64,000 bases of DNA from Frankia sp. AgB32 (GTDB lineage Bacteria > Actinomycetota > Actinomycetes > Frankiales > Frankiaceae). The number at the start of each line of letters is the position of its first letter. Positions within the stretch are counted from its first letter, which is position 1. Below, piece by piece: positions 1 to 9,094 of the stretch. The stretch covers positions 18,003 to 82,002 of the forward strand of contig NZ_JALKFX010000003.1 of NCBI RefSeq assembly GCF_023243045.1, given 5' to 3'. The notes beneath the pieces were generated by a model. It was not told the origin of the DNA, ran no database searches, and saw nothing but the letters and a program-made list of their open reading frames with translations. Position numbers and translations under genes: made by a program.

Positions 1-78
1 ACCGGATAACCGGTCTGCTCCCCGATCACCTCCACCACCACGTCCGACACCGCGGACCGGTCAAGCCCCGCGGCGACC
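1..78 (-). repeat. Tandem ACP repeat, copy 2 (cut by edge)
   Basis: Positions 1-78 are identical to 343-420, an offset of 342 bp or 114 codons. This is the N-terminal part of a second ACP in the synthase, including the VVVEVIGEQTG helix. Perfect identity at DNA level points to recent duplication or homogenisation of the ACP array, as in PfaA-type synthases. The total number of ACPs cannot be read here. Confidence 0.9.
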
Positions 79-3000
79 ACCCCTGACGCGGGTGTGGCGG
101 CACCGAGCGGCCCGGCGGACTGCCCGCCCGTCTCCGCCGGGGTCCGCCGGGCGACGATCCAGTCGACGATGCCACGCACCGTCTTCACCGCCGCGAGCTC
201 CTCGACGATCTCCTCATCCAGCTCCCCGGAACCGGCATCCACCAGACCGAGACGCCCGGCGAGCTCGCCCAGCACCTCCGTCCGCTTGATCGAGTCGATC
301 GACAGATCAGCCTCGAGATCCAGATCCGGTTCCAGCATCTCCACCGGATAACCGGTCTGCTCCCCGATCACCTCCACCACCACGTCCGACACCGCGGACC
401 GGTCAAGCCCCGCGGCGACCGGCACCGGCTGTGGTGCCGGCCCGGCGGGTCCCCCTGGCAGGACGGCGGGAACGGCGCCGGCGGCCGGTGCGACGCCGCC
501 GGCGGCCGGTTCGGCCTGGGGGGGCGTCGGCGTCGGCACGGGATGCGCGACGCCGTTGCTGGCCACCGCTGCGGCACGACCACCGTGGGTGGGCTGCTCG
601 ACCCGCTCGACGACGGTCGGTCGCGCCCGGACCGCGGGCTCCGCCGGCCGGTCGACGGCACCGGACGAGGCCGGGGCGTAACCCAGGTAACCGAGGATGA
701 CATCACGCTGCGCGGCGACCAGTTCCCGGGTCGTACGCAGAAAGTCCAGCACTACGGCCTCCACCGGACCGCCACCTCCAAGCTCGGGCAGGCCGGCGGC
801 GAGCGCCGCCGATTCGTCGGTCTGGTCTGTGGTCACGAACAGCTCGCCGGTCACGAACAGCTCGCCGGTCATGGCCTGATCGGCCGGGATGGCCTGCGCT
901 GTGGGCCCGGCCGGCTCCGGTACGGCAGCCGCCGCGCGCGCCGGGCGGGGACCGAGCGGCATCGACGGTCCGCTGCCGTTCGCCGTCGCGGCGACCCCGC
1001 CCGCGGCGAACGTCCGGACCGGCGGTGCCCCGCCGGAAGGGGGCTGCGGGAGCTCGGCCGGCAGGCCGGCGGCCGAGCCGCCCGACGCCACCGTGTCGGC
1101 CGGCACTCCCGTGTCGATCAGCGCGGCGGCACCGACCAGCGGAGCGATCTCCACCGGCTCACCCACGGCTGTCCGCTCGGCCGGTGCGCCCAGCGTGGTC
1201 AGCCGGCGCGGCGGCCGCAGGCCGCCGGGCAGGACGGAGCCGTCGGCCGTGCGGACGTAGGCGCCGTCGAGCAGCCAGCCGGGCTGGCGCGGGACGTCCT
1301 GGGCGCTGACCACCTGGGCGTCACGCCCGGTGAACAGCGGTGCCGTGTCGACGGTGATGCCGATCGCGGCGAGCTCCGCGAGCGCGAGCAGCAGCCGGCG
1401 CAACCCGAGTTCGCCGGCGACGTCGGTCGCGACGACCCGGTGCGGCCGCGCGCCGAGGATCTTGCCCACCAGCTGGGCGAGGACCCGGCCGGGGCCGGCC
1501 TCGACGAAGGTGCGCACGCCGGCGGCGTACATCGCCTCGATCTGCTCGACGAACCGCACCGGCGCGGCGACCTGACCGGCGAGCGTCGCGCGCACCGCGG
1601 CGGGCGACATGGGATACGGCGCCGCGGTCGTGTTCGACCACACCGTCAGCTCCGGGGCGGCGACGGGCAGCGCGGCCAACCGCTCGGCCAGCGTGTCCGC
1701 TGCGGCGGCCACCACCGGGCTGTGGAACGCGCAGGCCACGGGGATCCGTCGGGCGGTCAGGCCGGCGGCGTCCAGCGTCGCCATCGCCGTGGTGACCGCC
1801 TGCGTCGGGCCCGAGATCACGCTCTGGCGGGGGGCGTTGTGGTTGGCGACGACCACGCCGGCCTCCTCGCCGAGCGCCGCGAGTGCCTCCCGCACCCGCT
1901 CGATCGGCGCCGACACGGCGGCCATCGCGCCCGGGTCGTCCCCTGCCGCGGCGAGGATCGCGGCGGCCCGTGCCTCGCTGAGCCCGACCAGGTCGGCGCG
2001 GTCGAGCGCGCCGGCGGCGCACAGGGCGACCAGCTCGCCGTACGAATGCCCGGCGACGTGGTCGGGCCGCACGCCGAAGGTGGCGAGCAGGTCGTGCATG
2101 GCGAGGCCGCCGAGGCCGAGAGTCGGCTGCGCGGCCCGGGTGTCGGTGATCGCCGCCGCCTGCGCGGCCCGGTCCGCGGCGGTGAACGCGGCCGGCGGGA
2201 ACATCGTGTCGACCCACTGGGGGGCCAGGTCGAGCACGGCCCGCAGCCGCGGGAACGCGACGAACAGGTCGGCCAGCATCCCGGGCCGCTGACTGCCCTG
2301 GCCGGGGAACAGGAACGCGGTCGAACCCGCTGCCGTCGCGCCGGCACCGGCACCGGCACCGGCACCGGCGTCGGCGTCGGCGTCGCGGACGAACAGTCCG
2401 GCGGGCGGGTTCGGCTGAAAGGTGCGGGCCGCCTCGATCGCGGCGGGCAGACTGTCGAGATCGTCGACGACGAACGCGACCTGCACCGCTCCCCCACCCG
2501 CGGCGCAGGTGGTCCGGGCCAGGTCCCGCAGCCGGTACGGCCGCCCGGCGCCGTCGTTCGCGGTGCCGAGCGCGGCGAGCCGGTCCAGCGCCCGCCCGGC
2601 GGCCGCCCGGTCGGTGCCGCGCACGGTGAACAACTCGGCCGGCCAGCGGTCGAGGGCGTGCGCCGGCTCCGGACCGCCGTCGTAGGCGGAGAGCACGACG
2701 TGGAAGTTCGTGCCGCCGAACCCGAACGCGGAGACGCCGGCGTGCCGCTGGGAGCGCGGCGCCGCCCACGGCTTGGCGCTCTCGTCGAAGTAGAACGGGC
2801 TGGTCTCGGCGTCCCAGTATGCGTTCGGGGTGTCGATGTGCAGGGTCGGTGGGCGCACGCCGGTCTCGACCGCCCGGGCCATCTTGATCAGCCCAGCCAG
2901 GCCGGCGGCGCACTTGGTGTGGCCGATCTGCGATTTCACGGAGCCCACCGCGCAGGCGCCGGGGTCCGCGCCGTTCGCGGTGAACATCTCGGTGAGGGTG

Positions 3001-6000
3001 GCGAGCTCGGTGCGGTCACCGACGACGGTCCCGGTGGCGTGCGCCTCCAGCAGGCCGATGTCGGCCGGGGTGACCCCGGCCCGCGCGTAGGCCCGTTCCA
3101 GGGCCCGGACCTGGCCCTCCTTGCGCGGCGCGGTCAGCCCGAGGGCGCGGCCGTCGGACGAACCGGCGACGGCGCGGATGACGGCGTGGATGCGGTCGCC
3201 GTCGCGCTCGGCGTCGGCGAGCCGCTTGAGCACGACGACGGCGACGCCCTCCCCGAGGCTCGTGCCGTCGGCGCCCGCGTCGAAGCTGCGGCAGCGGCCC
3301 TGCGGCGACAACGCGTGCACGGAGGAGAACAGCAGGAAGTCGTGGGCGCCGGCGTGGGTGTCGACTCCGCCGCAGAGCACGAGGTCGGAGTTGCCGGTGA
3401 GCAGTTCCTTGCAGCCGGCGTCGAGGGCAGCCAGCGACGACGCACAGGCCGCGTCGACGGTGAAGTTCACCCCGCCGAGGTCGAGGCGGTTCGCGACCCG
3501 CCCGGCGATGACGTTCGCGAGCATGCCGGGGAAGGAGTCCTCGTCCAGTTCCGGCAGAAACTCGTCGAGCTCCGCGGGCAGCGATCCGAACAGTCCGGGC
3601 CACAACGAGCGCAGGCCGTAGGCGCCGGAGAGGTCTGTGCCGGCCTCGGTGCCGAACACGACGGACGCCCGGGACCGGTCGAACGACCGGCCGTCGTCGC
3701 CCTTGCGCGCCGTGTCGTAGCCGGCGTGGCGCAGCGCGCGGGCGGCGACCTCCAGGGCGAGCAGCTGGCTGGTCTCGATGCTGCGCAGCGAGCGCGGCGG
3801 GATGCCGTAGGACAGCGCGTCGAACGGGATCCGCGGCAGGTAACCGCCCCACTTCGACGGGGTGAACTTCCCGGCGTCCTTGACCACCGCGTCAGCGCGG
3901 TAGTAGATCTCCGGGTCCCACCGGTCGGCCGGCACCTCGCGGATCGCGTCGGTGCCGGCGACGATGTTGGCCCAGAACTCGTCGAGGTCAGGCGCATCCG
4001 GGAAGATCGCCGACATCCCGACGATCGCGATGTCGAGGCCGCGCCCGCCGGAGTCCGCCGGGGCCGGTTCGCGCACCGCGGCCGGTCCCGGCGCGGGGGC
4101 CGGCCGGGTGCCGGCGGTGGTCGGCCCGGCCGCGAGGCCAAGCTGCCCGGCGCGCTCGGCGAGCCGGTCGGTGGCGCCGGCGGTGACCTCGCCGTGCAGG
4201 TCGGCGACCGTGGTGCGGGCGGACCGCAGCGCCGCCACCTGGCCGATCATGAACATGCCGTCGCGCGCCTGCGCCTCGGGCGGGACTGCGACGACCTGCG
4301 CACCGTCGCGGCGCAGGCCCTTGCTGGCGACCCGCAGCCGGCCGAGGTTCAGCGACTCCAGCTCCGCCCACATCTGCTTGCGGCCGGTGCCGGCGGCGAG
4401 CAGGTCGCGCCGGCGGTCGAGGAACGTGTGGACGTAGGCGGACTCGACGCACCGGGTGGCGTGCCCGGGCGAGGTCTCCAACAGCACGGTGCGCTCGCAG
4501 TCCAGCGCGGCCTGCTGGAAACCGGGCTGGATCGCGCCGCTCGCGACGGCCTCGTCGGTGAACAGGTAGGCGGTGCCCATCAGCACGCCGACGTGGGCAC
4601 CCCGCTCGGCCAGCGGCGCCGCCGCGGCCGCGACCATCGCCGCGGACCGGGCGTCGTGGATGCCGCCGGCGAACAGCAGGTGCAGGCCGGCGAAGAAGTC
4701 CGGGCCGGCCGCGGCGGTCGCGCCGTAGGCGAGCAGGCCGTCGATCTGGGCCTGCCACAGCGGGAAGCTGGCCCGCGGCCCGACATGGCCGCCGCACTCG
4801 CGGCCCTCGAAGACGAACTTGCGGGCACCGTCGGCGAGGAACCGGCCGAGCAGCCCGGGCGAGGGCACGTGCAGGAACGTGTCGATCCCGGCGTCCTCCA
4901 ACGGCGCGGCCTGCGCCGGGCGCCCGCCGGCGATGATCGCGCACGGCGGGCCCACCTCCCGCACGGCCGCCATCTGCTCGGCCCGCAGCTCCGGCGGGGC
5001 GAAGCCGAGGATGCCGACGCCCCACGGCGCGTCGCCGAGCAGCGCCGCGGTCTCGCGTAGCAGGTCGCGGCTGTCGTCGCCGCTCAGCAGGGCGAGCGCG
5101 AGGAACGGCAGGCCGCCGCCGGCCGCGACGGCGTGGGCGAACTCGGCGCGGTCGCTCACCCGCGTCATCGGGCCCTGCGCGACGGGATGGCGCAGGCCTC
5201 GGGCGGCGGCAAAGGACGAACCGACCGCGAGCGGTTGGACCTGGGCAGCGGCGGTGATCCCGGCGCGGATTCCCTGGCGCACCGCCCGGACGACGCCGGC
5301 GGCGTTGACGTGGCGGTCTGCCAGCTCGGCGGCGAACGCGCCGTCCTGACCGATGGGCAGGAACTGCCGGGTGAGGTCGCGGGCGCCGAGCTGGGCGGCG
5401 ACGGCGGCGAACGCGCCGGGCGCGCTGTCGGTGGTGGGGGCGTCGAGGCTGCCGTCCGAGGCGATCTCGCCGCCGGTGGCCCGCAGGTCGTCACCGGCGG
5501 GCCGGTCGCTCTGCCCGGCGAGGGCGGCGATGGGCAGGTCGGGACGACTGTAGAGCCGGTGGCCCGCGTGCAGGACGGTCTCACTGCCGTCCATGGCCCG
5601 GATCGCGGCCGCGACCTGCTCGGGCAGCTCCATCTCCCGGACCAGCGCGAGCTGGGTGTCGAGCACGACCCCGGTCGCTCCACCGGCGACGGCCGCGGCG
5701 GCGGTCGCCGGCCCGCTCCCGCCGGCGGCGAACACCGGCCCCAGGTCCCCCGCGCCGGTACGTGGCTCGGCGGCGAGAAGGTGCTGCAGCAGGGTGAACG
5801 TGGTCAGGTCGCCGACCGCGCCACCGGACTCGTTGCCGCGCGCGATCAGGCCGACCGCACCGGCCGTGACGGCGTCCCGCGCCTCGGCGACCGAGGTCAC
5901 CTCCACCCACACCCGCCGGCCAGCGCGGACCAGCTCGGCGGCGGACCATGGCGACCGGACAGCGGGCGACCGGACAGCGGGCGACCGGGCGGCGAGGACG

Positions 6001-6308
6001 ACCAGGTCGACCGACGCGGGCAGCTCGGCGGGGCTCACCGGGCAGCCGGCACCGGCCCGCACGCCGAAGCTCCCGCGGGTCCAGCGGGCCGCGTCGCGCA
6101 GCGCCTCCCGGGCCTCGCGCGCCGACCGGCCGAGGTCGAGCACACCCACCCCGCCCGCCCGCACGACCGCCGCGACGAGCGCGGGGGCAGGCTGCGCGAA
6201 CGGTGTGATCACGACGACCAGCTCAGGGGCGTCGAGCGCTGCGGGCCAGACGGGCCCGTCGGGCCCGATCGACGCGCCGACGGGCGGCGGGCACAGGGCG
6301 GTGGTCAT
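1..6308 (-). CDS. PUFA-synthase-like type I polyketide synthase (NMO-NMO-KS-AT-ACP-ACP...), 3' end beyond window
   Basis: Giant multidomain synthase gene, open for about 2102 codons and leaving the window at its left edge. The start is ATG 6308, with AGGAGG 8 nt upstream. Domains in order: a degenerate flavin TIM-barrel (NMO/PfaD enoyl-reductase-like, about residues 15-330, with GNESGGAVG where active enzymes have GGHxG, Ala164 replacing His); a second, intact NMO/PfaD-like barrel (about 365-730, ECGGHVG, His508); a ketosynthase (about 760-1200, DAACASS with Cys955 and EAHATGT); an acyltransferase (about 1330-1640, FPGQGSQ and GHSYGEL, Ser1422); a long linker; a first ACP (about 1969-2044, DSIKR with phosphopantetheine Ser2006); and the start of a second, near-identical ACP. 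KS, AT and tandem ACPs follow the PfaA order; PfaD enoyl reductases are normally separate proteins. The likely job is making a long-chain or polyunsaturated-type lipid; the product is unknown. KR, DH or further ACPs may lie beyond the edge. Confidence 0.9.
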   Translation of the reverse strand, partial: MTTALCPPPVGASIGPDGPVWPAALDAPELVVVITPFAQPAPALVAAVVRAGGVGVLDLGRSAREAREALRDAARWTRGSFGVRAGAGCPVSPAELPASVDLVVLAARSPAVRSPAVRSPWSAAELVRAGRRVWVEVTSVAEARDAVTAGAVGLIARGNESGGAVGDLTTFTLLQHLLAAEPRTGAGDLGPVFAAGGSGPATAAAAVAGGATGVVLDTQLALVREMELPEQVAAAIRAMDGSETVLHAGHRLYSRPDLPIAALAGQSDRPAGDDLRATGGEIASDGSLDAPTTDSAPGAFAAVAAQLGARDLTRQFLPIGQDGAFAAELADRHVNAAGVVRAVRQGIRAGITAAAQVQPLAVGSSFAAARGLRHPVAQGPMTRVSDRAEFAHAVAAGGGLPFLALALLSGDDSRDLLRETAALLGDAPWGVGILGFAPPELRAEQMAAVREVGPPCAIIAGGRPAQAAPLEDAGIDTFLHVPSPGLLGRFLADGARKFVFEGRECGGHVGPRASFPLWQAQIDGLLAYGATAAAGPDFFAGLHLLFAGGIHDARSAAMVAAAAAPLAERGAHVGVLMGTAYLFTDEAVASGAIQPGFQQAALDCERTVLLETSPGHATRCVESAYVHTFLDRRRDLLAAGTGRKQMWAELESLNLGRLRVASKGLRRDGAQVVAVPPEAQARDGMFMIGQVAALRSARTTVADLHGEVTAGATDRLAERAGQLGLAAGPTTAGTRPAPAPGPAAVREPAPADSGGRGLDIAIVGMSAIFPDAPDLDEFWANIVAGTDAIREVPADRWDPEIYYRADAVVKDAGKFTPSKWGGYLPRIPFDALSYGIPPRSLRSIETSQLLALEVAARALRHAGYDTARKGDDGRSFDRSRASVVFGTEAGTDLSGAYGLRSLWPGLFGSLPAELDEFLPELDEDSFPGMLANVIAGRVANRLDLGGVNFTVDAACASSLAALDAGCKELLTGNSDLVLCGGVDTHAGAHDFLLFSSVHALSPQGRCRSFDAGADGTSLGEGVAVVVLKRLADAERDGDRIHAVIRAVAGSSDGRALGLTAPRKEGQVRALERAYARAGVTPADIGLLEAHATGTVVGDRTELATLTEMFTANGADPGACAVGSVKSQIGHTKCAAGLAGLIKMARAVETGVRPPTLHIDTPNAYWDAETSPFYFDESAKPWAAPRSQRHAGVSAFGFGGTNFHVVLSAYDGGPEPAHALDRWPAELFTVRGTDRAAAGRALDRLAALGTANDGAGRPYRLRDLARTTCAAGGGAVQVAFVVDDLDSLPAAIEAARTFQPNPPAGLFVRDADADAGAGAGAGAGATAAGSTAFLFPGQGSQRPGMLADLFVAFPRLRAVLDLAPQWVDTMFPPAAFTAADRAAQAAAITDTRAAQPTLGLGGLAMHDLLATFGVRPDHVAGHSYGELVALCAAGALDRADLVGLSEARAAAILAAAGDDPGAMAAVSAPIERVREALAALGEEAGVVVANHNAPRQSVISGPTQAVTTAMATLDAAGLTARRIPVACAFHSPVVAAAADTLAERLAALPVAAPELTVWSNTTAAPYPMSPAAVRATLAGQVAAPVRFVEQIEAMYAAGVRTFVEAGPGRVLAQLVGKILGARPHRVVATDVAGELGLRRLLLALAELAAIGITVDTAPLFTGRDAQVVSAQDVPRQPGWLLDGAYVRTADGSVLPGGLRPPRRLTTLGAPAERTAVGEPVEIAPLVGAAALIDTGVPADTVASGGSAAGLPAELPQPPSGGAPPVRTFAAGGVAATANGSGPSMPLGPRPARAAAAVPEPAGPTAQAIPADQAMTGELFVTGELFVTTDQTDESAALAAGLPELGGGGPVEAVVLDFLRTTRELVAAQRDVILGYLGYAPASSGAVDRPAEPAVRARPTVVERVEQPTHGGRAAAVASNGVAHPVPTPTPPQAEPAAGGVAPAAGAVPAVLPGGPAGPAPQPVPVAAGLDRSAVSDVVVEVIGEQTGYPVEMLEPDLDLEADLSIDSIKRTEVLGELAGRLGLVDAGSGELDEEIVEELAAVKTVRGIVDWIVARRTPAETGGQSAGPLGAATPASGVVAAGLDRSAVSDVVVEVIGEQTGYP
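343..420 (-). repeat. Tandem ACP repeat, copy 1
   Basis: First copy of the 78-bp segment that recurs exactly at 1-78. It encodes the N-terminal helix of the first ACP, whose DSIKR serine codon lies at 291-293. Confidence 0.9.
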
Positions 6309-7954: not shown

Positions 7955-9094
7955 TCAGGGTCGCGGCGGGCTCGGCGGCGCGAACGCGCTGGTCTCCCGC
8001 TGCCATGCGATGGCGAGCTGGGTGCGGTTCGTGCATCCCGTTGCCACGAGGGCGTGGGTCAGATGGTGCTTGACAGTGTCGATACTGATGCACAGCGCCT
8101 CGGCGACCTGGCGGTTCGACCGGCCCTCGGCGACGAGTCGGACAACGTCCCGCTCGCGGGCGGACAGCCGGCCCGCGACCGACGGACCCGGGTCGGTCCG
8201 GATGTAGAAGCGCAGCAGGTTACCCAGATGCCGACCAAGCACAGCGCCGACGGCGCGGTCACGCGGGCCGAACGCACCCGGACGCGAGTCGAGCAGCGAG
8301 ATCAGCGCGCCAACGTTCGACGGGCCGAACAGCCGAACGAGCAGCTTGGCGTGGATGCCGTGGGCGCGCAGGAAACGCTCCAGCCGCATCCGCACCTCGG
8401 GCCGGTCCGGCACCCCGAGGTCGTCGAGGGTGGCCAGGCCGCGCTCGCGGACCGAACGCAGGCTCTCCGGGTTGCTCAGCGCCTCAAGCTCCCGGTAACG
8501 CTCCATGTACGGACCGGCGAGGCGCAGCGCCAGGCCCCGGCCGGTGGGACGGGCGTCCTGGAACGCCGTCTCGATGGAGGAGCCCAGGAAGAAGGCCGAG
8601 TGCCGGTAGCCGAGGTGGCGAGCCATGCCGTCGAGGGCCAGTTCGCGGAAGGATGCCAGCGAGCTGGCCCGCTCACAGTCCTCCACCACGCGCAGGATGC
8701 CGCGCAGTTCGGCGGCGCCCAGCGCGAGGTCGCGCGGCATCGGCGCGCCGACCCGGCCCGCCTGCTGCAGGGCGGGCCTCGCGGCGCCGGGCACCGTGCG
8801 GGCGCCGCCGGGAACCTCGCCTCGACCCACCGGCGGTCCCGCGAGGGGCGCCGCGGCGCGGCCGTGGGAGAGCTGGCGCGCGGCGGCGCTGCCCATTCCG
8901 GTGCTCGGTGCGGGGTGCCGTGGGGCCGCGTGGTGCGGTGTGTTCGGCGGTGCTGGGGAACTTGCCGAGGCGCGCCTGGCCATCCCACCGACCACACCCA
9001 GGTCCGTGGATGTGTCCACGGTCACGCCGATTCGCGGCCGATGGGGTATCTCCTCGCCGATAGCATCGGTCGAGCGGGGAACTCGGTCGGTCAC
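7955..9094 (-). CDS. LuxR-family transcriptional regulator
   Basis: 379-residue protein with a C-terminal GerE/LuxR helix-turn-helix (about residues 310-365: LSARERDVVRLVAEGRSN, then IDTVKHHL). The central region (about 130-290) looks like a GAF-type sensory fold; residues 1-120 are Ala/Pro-rich and probably disordered. The start is GTG 9094, preceded by GGAGG at good spacing. It is the closest regulator to the synthase and points toward it, followed by a strong hairpin. Control of the synthase is plausible but inferred. There is no receiver domain with phospho-acceptor motifs, so it is not a typical two-component response regulator. Confidence 0.85.
   Translation of the reverse strand: MTDRVPRSTDAIGEEIPHRPRIGVTVDTSTDLGVVGGMARRASASSPAPPNTPHHAAPRHPAPSTGMGSAAARQLSHGRAAAPLAGPPVGRGEVPGGARTVPGAARPALQQAGRVGAPMPRDLALGAAELRGILRVVEDCERASSLASFRELALDGMARHLGYRHSAFFLGSSIETAFQDARPTGRGLALRLAGPYMERYRELEALSNPESLRSVRERGLATLDDLGVPDRPEVRMRLERFLRAHGIHAKLLVRLFGPSNVGALISLLDSRPGAFGPRDRAVGAVLGRHLGNLLRFYIRTDPGPSVAGRLSARERDVVRLVAEGRSNRQVAEALCISIDTVKHHLTHALVATGCTNRTQLAIAWQRETSAFAPPSPPRP

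Follow-up and report, generated by a model that had tools for sequence, protein, structure and literature searches.

The 64,000-nucleotide stretch of Frankia sp. AgB32 analysed here (C208:18003-82002, called the window below; C208 is a 137-kb contig of a 6.7-Mb genome) begins with a PfaA-like synthase gene on the minus strand, with its ATG at window position 6308 and its frame open to the left edge. In this single frame, two flavin mononucleotide (FMN)-type TIM barrels resembling enoyl reductases (ERs) are followed by ketosynthase (KS), acyltransferase (AT), and acyl carrier protein (ACP) domains. As the fusion matches the described Type M architecture, the novelty of the protein rests on the obligate pair of one putatively live and one probably dead barrel, and not on the fusion.

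The initial annotation had read two barrels, a KS and an AT as fused in one frame to a PfaA-like synthase, and this was borne out by Pfam matches to NMO in two stretches (64.8 bits), ketoacyl-synt (2.3e-63), Acyl_transf_1 (1.9e-37), and PP-binding (9.7e-5). Barrel 1 by itself matched NMO (1.4e-7) and the solved FabK (1e-9). An AlphaFold2 model of residues 1-724, built from 59 sequences, contained two complete TIM barrels and not one PfaD domain (pLDDT 89.4, pTM 0.91). The residues singled out by the initial annotation were found as stated, namely, Ala at position 164 within GNESGGAVG of barrel 1 and His at position 508 within GRECGGHVG of barrel 2. The KS retains its Cys (VDAACASS) and the AT retains GHSYGE, and the PfaA model TIGR02813 spans the KS-AT part with 678 bits, under its cut-off of 1010.

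In the case of the ACPs, for which a tandem arrangement had been proposed, one complete domain was found in the window, followed by no more than the initial 23 residues of a second, near-identical copy. A 99-N assembly gap (C208:17904-18002), directly left of window base 1, interrupts this second copy and breaks the frame. The gap is probably a collapsed ACP repeat and no real frameshift; if it held the remainder of the second ACP, its content would be 142 bases, which would also restore the frame. Beyond the gap, the gene continues with an ACP tail and a ketoreductase (KR) domain (C208:16194-17903). Complete relatives carry one or two ACPs by motif scan, the window gene itself being interrupted by the gap.

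Family placement of the two barrels

The initial annotation had called the barrels PfaD-like, and this identity was rejected. The PfaD profile TIGR02814 gave no match at E <= 1 to either barrel, while three genuine PfaD genes were found in the same genome as a positive control (C209:30157-31479, C240:25214-26524, and C249:20575-21885). In profile comparisons, barrel 2 matched FabK at 3e-30 versus PfaD at 3e-6, and barrel 1 matched FabK at 3e-20, PfaD at 2e-4, and barrel 2 at 2e-8. Structure matching placed barrel 2 on FabK (2z6i; Z 37.6, 2.1 Å over 312 residues) and on PfaD (4z9r; Z 32.9, 3.0 Å over 341 residues). When barrel 1 was folded alone, it matched FabK with Z 22.1 and 2.8 Å over 228 residues, the match ending at the start of the FabK lid. 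In the tree, barrel 1, barrel 2, FabK, and PfaD formed one clade each, although long branches come together at the base and make the deep branching unreliable. Thus, FabK is the nearest family of both barrels, and neither of them is a PfaD. One of the barrels is presumably covered by the NCBI CDD entry "NPD-like domain associated with PKS" (NPD_PKS).

The likeness to FabK (TIGR03151; PDB 2z6i) extends to the fold, and barrel 2 shares the QGxM, ExGGH, and GGI/GT motifs. However, FabK is a stand-alone protein of about 320 aa, and the barrels form clades of their own and fall far under the equivalog cut-off of TIGR03151 (453 bits), with scores of 53 and 61 bits. PfaD and the ERs of trans-AT polyketide synthases (PKSs; TIGR02814; PDB 4z9r, 4cw5) are likewise FMN TIM-barrel ERs that partner a PfaA-type synthase, but PfaD is a separate subunit with an EADSGGHTD motif and large insertions, whereas barrel 2 resembles FabK and is joined in cis to the synthase. 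Since barrel 1 is nearer to FabK than to barrel 2, its origin as a recent tandem duplicate of barrel 2 was unsupported. Separately, the three PfaD genes elsewhere in the genome probably mark several further synthase loci of the polyunsaturated fatty acid (PUFA) or trans-AT type.

Residue losses and pairing of the barrels

To compare the active sites, the window protein was aligned with 77 relatives (n = 78). Where FabK has its catalytic His, barrel 1 showed Arg in 53 sequences, Val in 8, Leu in 7, Ala in 6, Trp in 3, and Pro in 1, and His in none of the 78. Barrel 2 showed His in 78 of 78, an invariance that is partly by construction, as the scan patterns used for the collection were ECGGH[VI]GP and QGPMTRVS (loci L030-L109); no barrel-1 pattern was used. 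The 16 sequences from a pattern-free whole-protein search agreed on the catalytic-position residues of both barrels. Barrel 2 also carries the motif-I Met (QGPM) beside its catalytic-His motif ECGGH, and barrel 1 has neither. In the hhalign comparison, the QGGM Met motif of FabK was without counterpart in barrel 1, the match starting downstream of the motif; any Met in the motif region was present in 6 of the 78 rows, and in none of them in a QGxM context. In the TIM-barrel ER class, the Met of the QGGM motif contacts FMN (PMC13311796). Moreover, the invariant G-T of the FabK phosphate loop is replaced in barrel 1 by D-x-Q, of which D217 and Q219 are invariant.

These losses are accompanied by invariants of its own, since E160, G163, G196, G197, D217, and Q219 of barrel 1 are conserved throughout the alignment. 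The mean column identity was 43% for barrel 1 (49 rows) versus 64% for barrel 2 (26 rows), the row sets being different. As the catalytic His is missing, barrel 1 is probably non-catalytic, in agreement with the initial annotation.

The two barrels were also found to travel together. In a search of 392 Actinomycetota genomes, strong barrel-1 matches (E <= 1e-59) and barrel-2 matches occurred in the same 10 genomes and in the same frame, and neither barrel was found alone. The next barrel-1 match fell to 3e-27, and the matches of this weaker class were mostly stand-alone frames of FabK size. Within the Frankiaceae, the two-barrel region was matched in 32 of the 35 genomes searched, and same-genus relatives of the window locus showed 76-88% identity. 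Barrel 1 is probably catalytically dead, yet presumably needed. The coordinates of the features are collected in Table 1.

Table 1. Features of the synthase gene and its upstream flank, in window coordinates
Feature	Position	Strand	Basis or remark
PfaA-like synthase gene, 5' part (psiER-ER-KS-AT-ACP...)	1..6308	-	Frame, Pfam; continues left through the 99-N gap
Barrel 1 (ER1), residues 25-262; TIM barrel of the FabK fold, lacking the catalytic His, the motif-I Met, and the C-terminal lid	5523..6236	-	
Ala164 codon, at the position of the FabK catalytic His	5817..5819	-	Alignment
Helices joining the two barrels (residues 295-361), preceded by disordered residues 267-294	5226..5426	-	AlphaFold2 model
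Barrel 2 (ER2), residues 362-724; complete enoyl reductase of the FabK type, lid included	4137..5225	-	
His508 codon, predicted catalytic His of barrel 2	4785..4787	-	Alignment
KS, Cys in VDAACASS	2835..4034	-	Pfam
AT, GHSYGE and AFHSP motifs	1461..2315	-	Pfam
First ACP (EADLSIDSIKR)	243..383	-	Pfam
Start of near-identical second ACP, cut by the gap	3..71	-	
LuxR-family regulator on the upstream side; may regulate the synthase, by association only	7958..9094	-	

Gene cluster and comparison with Type M loci

The KR, dehydratase (DH), and PfaC-like partner that the initial annotation had proposed to look for on the left were found there, the KR past the gap and the others in a 1760-aa protein on the same strand. 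This PfaC-like protein has the order KS-AT-PS-DH-PPTase (ketoacyl-synt, Acyl_transf_1, PS-DH, and ACPS matches; PPTase, phosphopantetheinyl transferase). It contains one KS and one PS-DH; a FabA-type dehydratase/isomerase and a chain-length factor (CLF) were not detected in it. Further left, the same strand has genes for a separate ACP and an alpha/beta hydrolase, and also for a glycosyltransferase of the UGT/macrolide type and a protein with a methyltransferase domain.

As far as the retrieved flanks reach, this gene order recurs in Actinomycetota and in metagenome-assembled genomes labelled Myxococcales, Planctomycetota, Acidobacteriaceae, and others. The six-gene cluster was also found on two large Streptomyces plasmids (NZ_CP108735.1 17677-32648 and NZ_CP108492.1 14827-29801), where the genes are annotated as polyketide synthase or SDR oxidoreductase, ketosynthase, ACP, hydrolase, glycosyltransferase, and methyltransferase. 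The plasmid clusters adjoin insertion sequence (IS) elements, which suggests mobility. Unlike the usual order, a variant in Actinomadura sp. NBRC 104425 showed no KS_C/DH match between the synthase and the glycosyltransferase/methyltransferase genes.

On comparing the locus with known systems, the closest arrangement was Type M, described from Frankia, Actinosynnema, Renibacterium, and S. avermitilis, the product being uncharacterised (Shulse & Allen 2011, PMC3098273). The host group is shared, and so are the PfaA-like gene with a fused ER and the pfaBC-like gene ending in a PPTase. By the definition given in PMC13291983 and PMC3098273, Type M has an ER fused to the PfaA-like protein, as was found here (KS-AT-ACP-KR), and the PPTase domain lies on the pfaBC-like partner, here the 1760-aa protein. 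Nearly all Frankiaceae genomes carry the synthase gene, as has been stated of Type M for Frankia. On its architecture, the cluster is best filed as Type-M-like. Accordingly, the suggestion in the initial annotation of an undescribed pathway was overstated: the fused pfaDA with pfaBC-PPTase is already described as the Type M arrangement in Frankia and Renibacterium, although without a known product. The text of PMC3098273, figures apart, does not mention a two-barrel structure or a pseudo-reductase, and no passage was found in the texts consulted that calls the ER of Type M doubled or FabK-like.

A fused pfaDA with pfaBC-PPTase has also been described in Aquimarina and Flavobacterium clusters and was likened there to Renibacterium (PMC13291983). 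These clusters share the fused order and the PPTase on the pfaBC-like gene, but they lie beside PKS and nonribosomal peptide synthetase (PKS-NRPS) genes. In the case of the canonical PUFA synthases (Types A/B), the FabA-like pair and the KS-CLF of PfaC were not found in the PfaC-like protein here; the canonical synthases have 4-6 tandem ACPs. The thraustochytrid ERb/ERc heterodimer (PMC13311796) likewise has two non-identical, cooperating ER barrels, one of which needs the other for stability; however, these are two polypeptides of the PfaD type, and the catalytic His is kept in both. The literature gave nothing specific on the product, on a role in Frankia vesicle glycolipids, or on a tandem FabK-like ER, and work on cyanobacterial heterocyte glycolipids did not mention Frankia.

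Proposed roles of the barrels and the product

The locus is read as a Type-M-like synthase in which a live barrel 2 and a non-catalytic partner, barrel 1, contribute to a glycosylated long-chain lipid, and we consider this joint reading somewhat better than evenly supported. Barrel 2, predicted to be active from its retained motifs, would bind FMN, and its His508 would reduce the trans-2-enoyl-ACP intermediates that the KS, KR, and DH of this synthase supply. Barrel 1 would be a pseudo-reductase that lacks flavin, or at any rate carries out no reduction, and that packs against barrel 2. By analogy, it would take the place of the second protomer in FabK, PfaD, and thraustochytrid ER dimers and may assist ACP docking. 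TIM-barrel ERs have been reported as dimers, and the nearest precedent is the thraustochytrid ERb/ERc pair, in which ERb was stable only with ERc (PMC13311796).

The assembly would build long chains iteratively, with no isomerisation of the PUFA type, and the chain would be released by hydrolysis and glycosylated. Because of the downstream hydrolase, glycosyltransferase, and methyltransferase, the product, as judged from gene content, is probably a released, glycosylated, perhaps methylated long-chain lipid and not a methylene-interrupted PUFA. The presence of PS-DH, with no FabA-type dehydratase/isomerase detected, also argues against a PUFA-type product. As a bolder extension, which we hold to be less likely than not, the dead barrel kept fused to the live one may shape ACP access and thereby program the extent of reduction in each cycle, within a widely distributed glycolipid pathway.

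Several points weigh against the joint reading. The roles are drawn from sequence and predicted structure, and the placement of the two barrels is likened to a FabK dimer by analogy. As barrel 1 has its own set of invariant residues, it could bind or catalyse something else, and ER1 and ER2 could both be required for another partner. The glycosyltransferase and methyltransferase are candidates, from their gene neighbourhood, for acting on the synthase product. The C-terminal completeness of the window protein was deduced from relatives, the assembly gap intervening.

Among the alternatives, and in line with the initial annotation, barrel 1 could mainly dock the ACP or gate the substrate, selecting the enoyl intermediates that gain access to barrel 2 and so setting the degree of saturation. 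The obligate pairing would fit such a module, and models of the thraustochytrid enzyme predict contact between the ACP and the partner ER (PMC13311796), but ACP binding is not indicated by any sequence feature here. We regard this as rather unlikely, and it is compatible with, and hard to tell apart from, a structural partner role.

It is slightly less probable still that barrel 1 is an enzyme with flavin-free chemistry of its own, e.g., an isomerase or hydratase using Arg164 (the usual residue in relatives), Glu160, and Asp217, so that the pair performs two steps. The invariance of E160, D217, and Q219 (78/78) and the prevalence of Arg164 (53 of 78 sequences) speak for it, as does the lack of a detected FabA-type isomerase domain in the cluster. 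However, position 164 tolerates many residues (R, V, L, A, W, P), which is untypical of a catalytic site. Moreover, the lid that shuts the FabK active site is missing from barrel 1, and its columns are less conserved than those of barrel 2, within the limits of the differing row sets given above.

A functionless, decaying relic of a tandem duplication would explain the lost cofactor and catalytic motifs. This is very improbable, as barrel 1 has been retained with its invariant residues in 78 sequences of several phyla and was never lost among the 392 genomes, and its greater nearness to FabK leaves a recent barrel-2 duplication unsupported. That residues 1-730 form a single ordinary PfaD joined to PfaA, as the TIGR02813 coverage of KS-AT (below cut-off) and the fold common to PfaD and barrel 2 might suggest, is refuted by the lack of a TIGR02814 match, by the tree and profile comparisons that set both barrels apart from PfaD, and by the two barrels in the model.

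The ER is central to the question of how iterative PUFA-type synthases choose the double bonds that they retain. With a probably dead and a putatively live FabK-type barrel in the same chain and hundreds of relatives, the role of the partner becomes testable with one protein. The comparison also marked out a conserved six-gene cluster for a putative lipid product, present on Streptomyces plasmids as well.

Several Frankiaceae genomes carry a second two-barrel copy at about 55-60% identity (e.g., G001:C1:3160863-3162938, and several contigs of G029), and this diverged second synthase suggests two different products. LuxR-family regulators lie upstream of the synthase gene. Downstream of the cluster (L009:3489-6364, minus strand), a protein with a GmrSD-type restriction N-domain (PF03235) was found beside a HipA-like protein, a possible defence or toxin-antitoxin pair.

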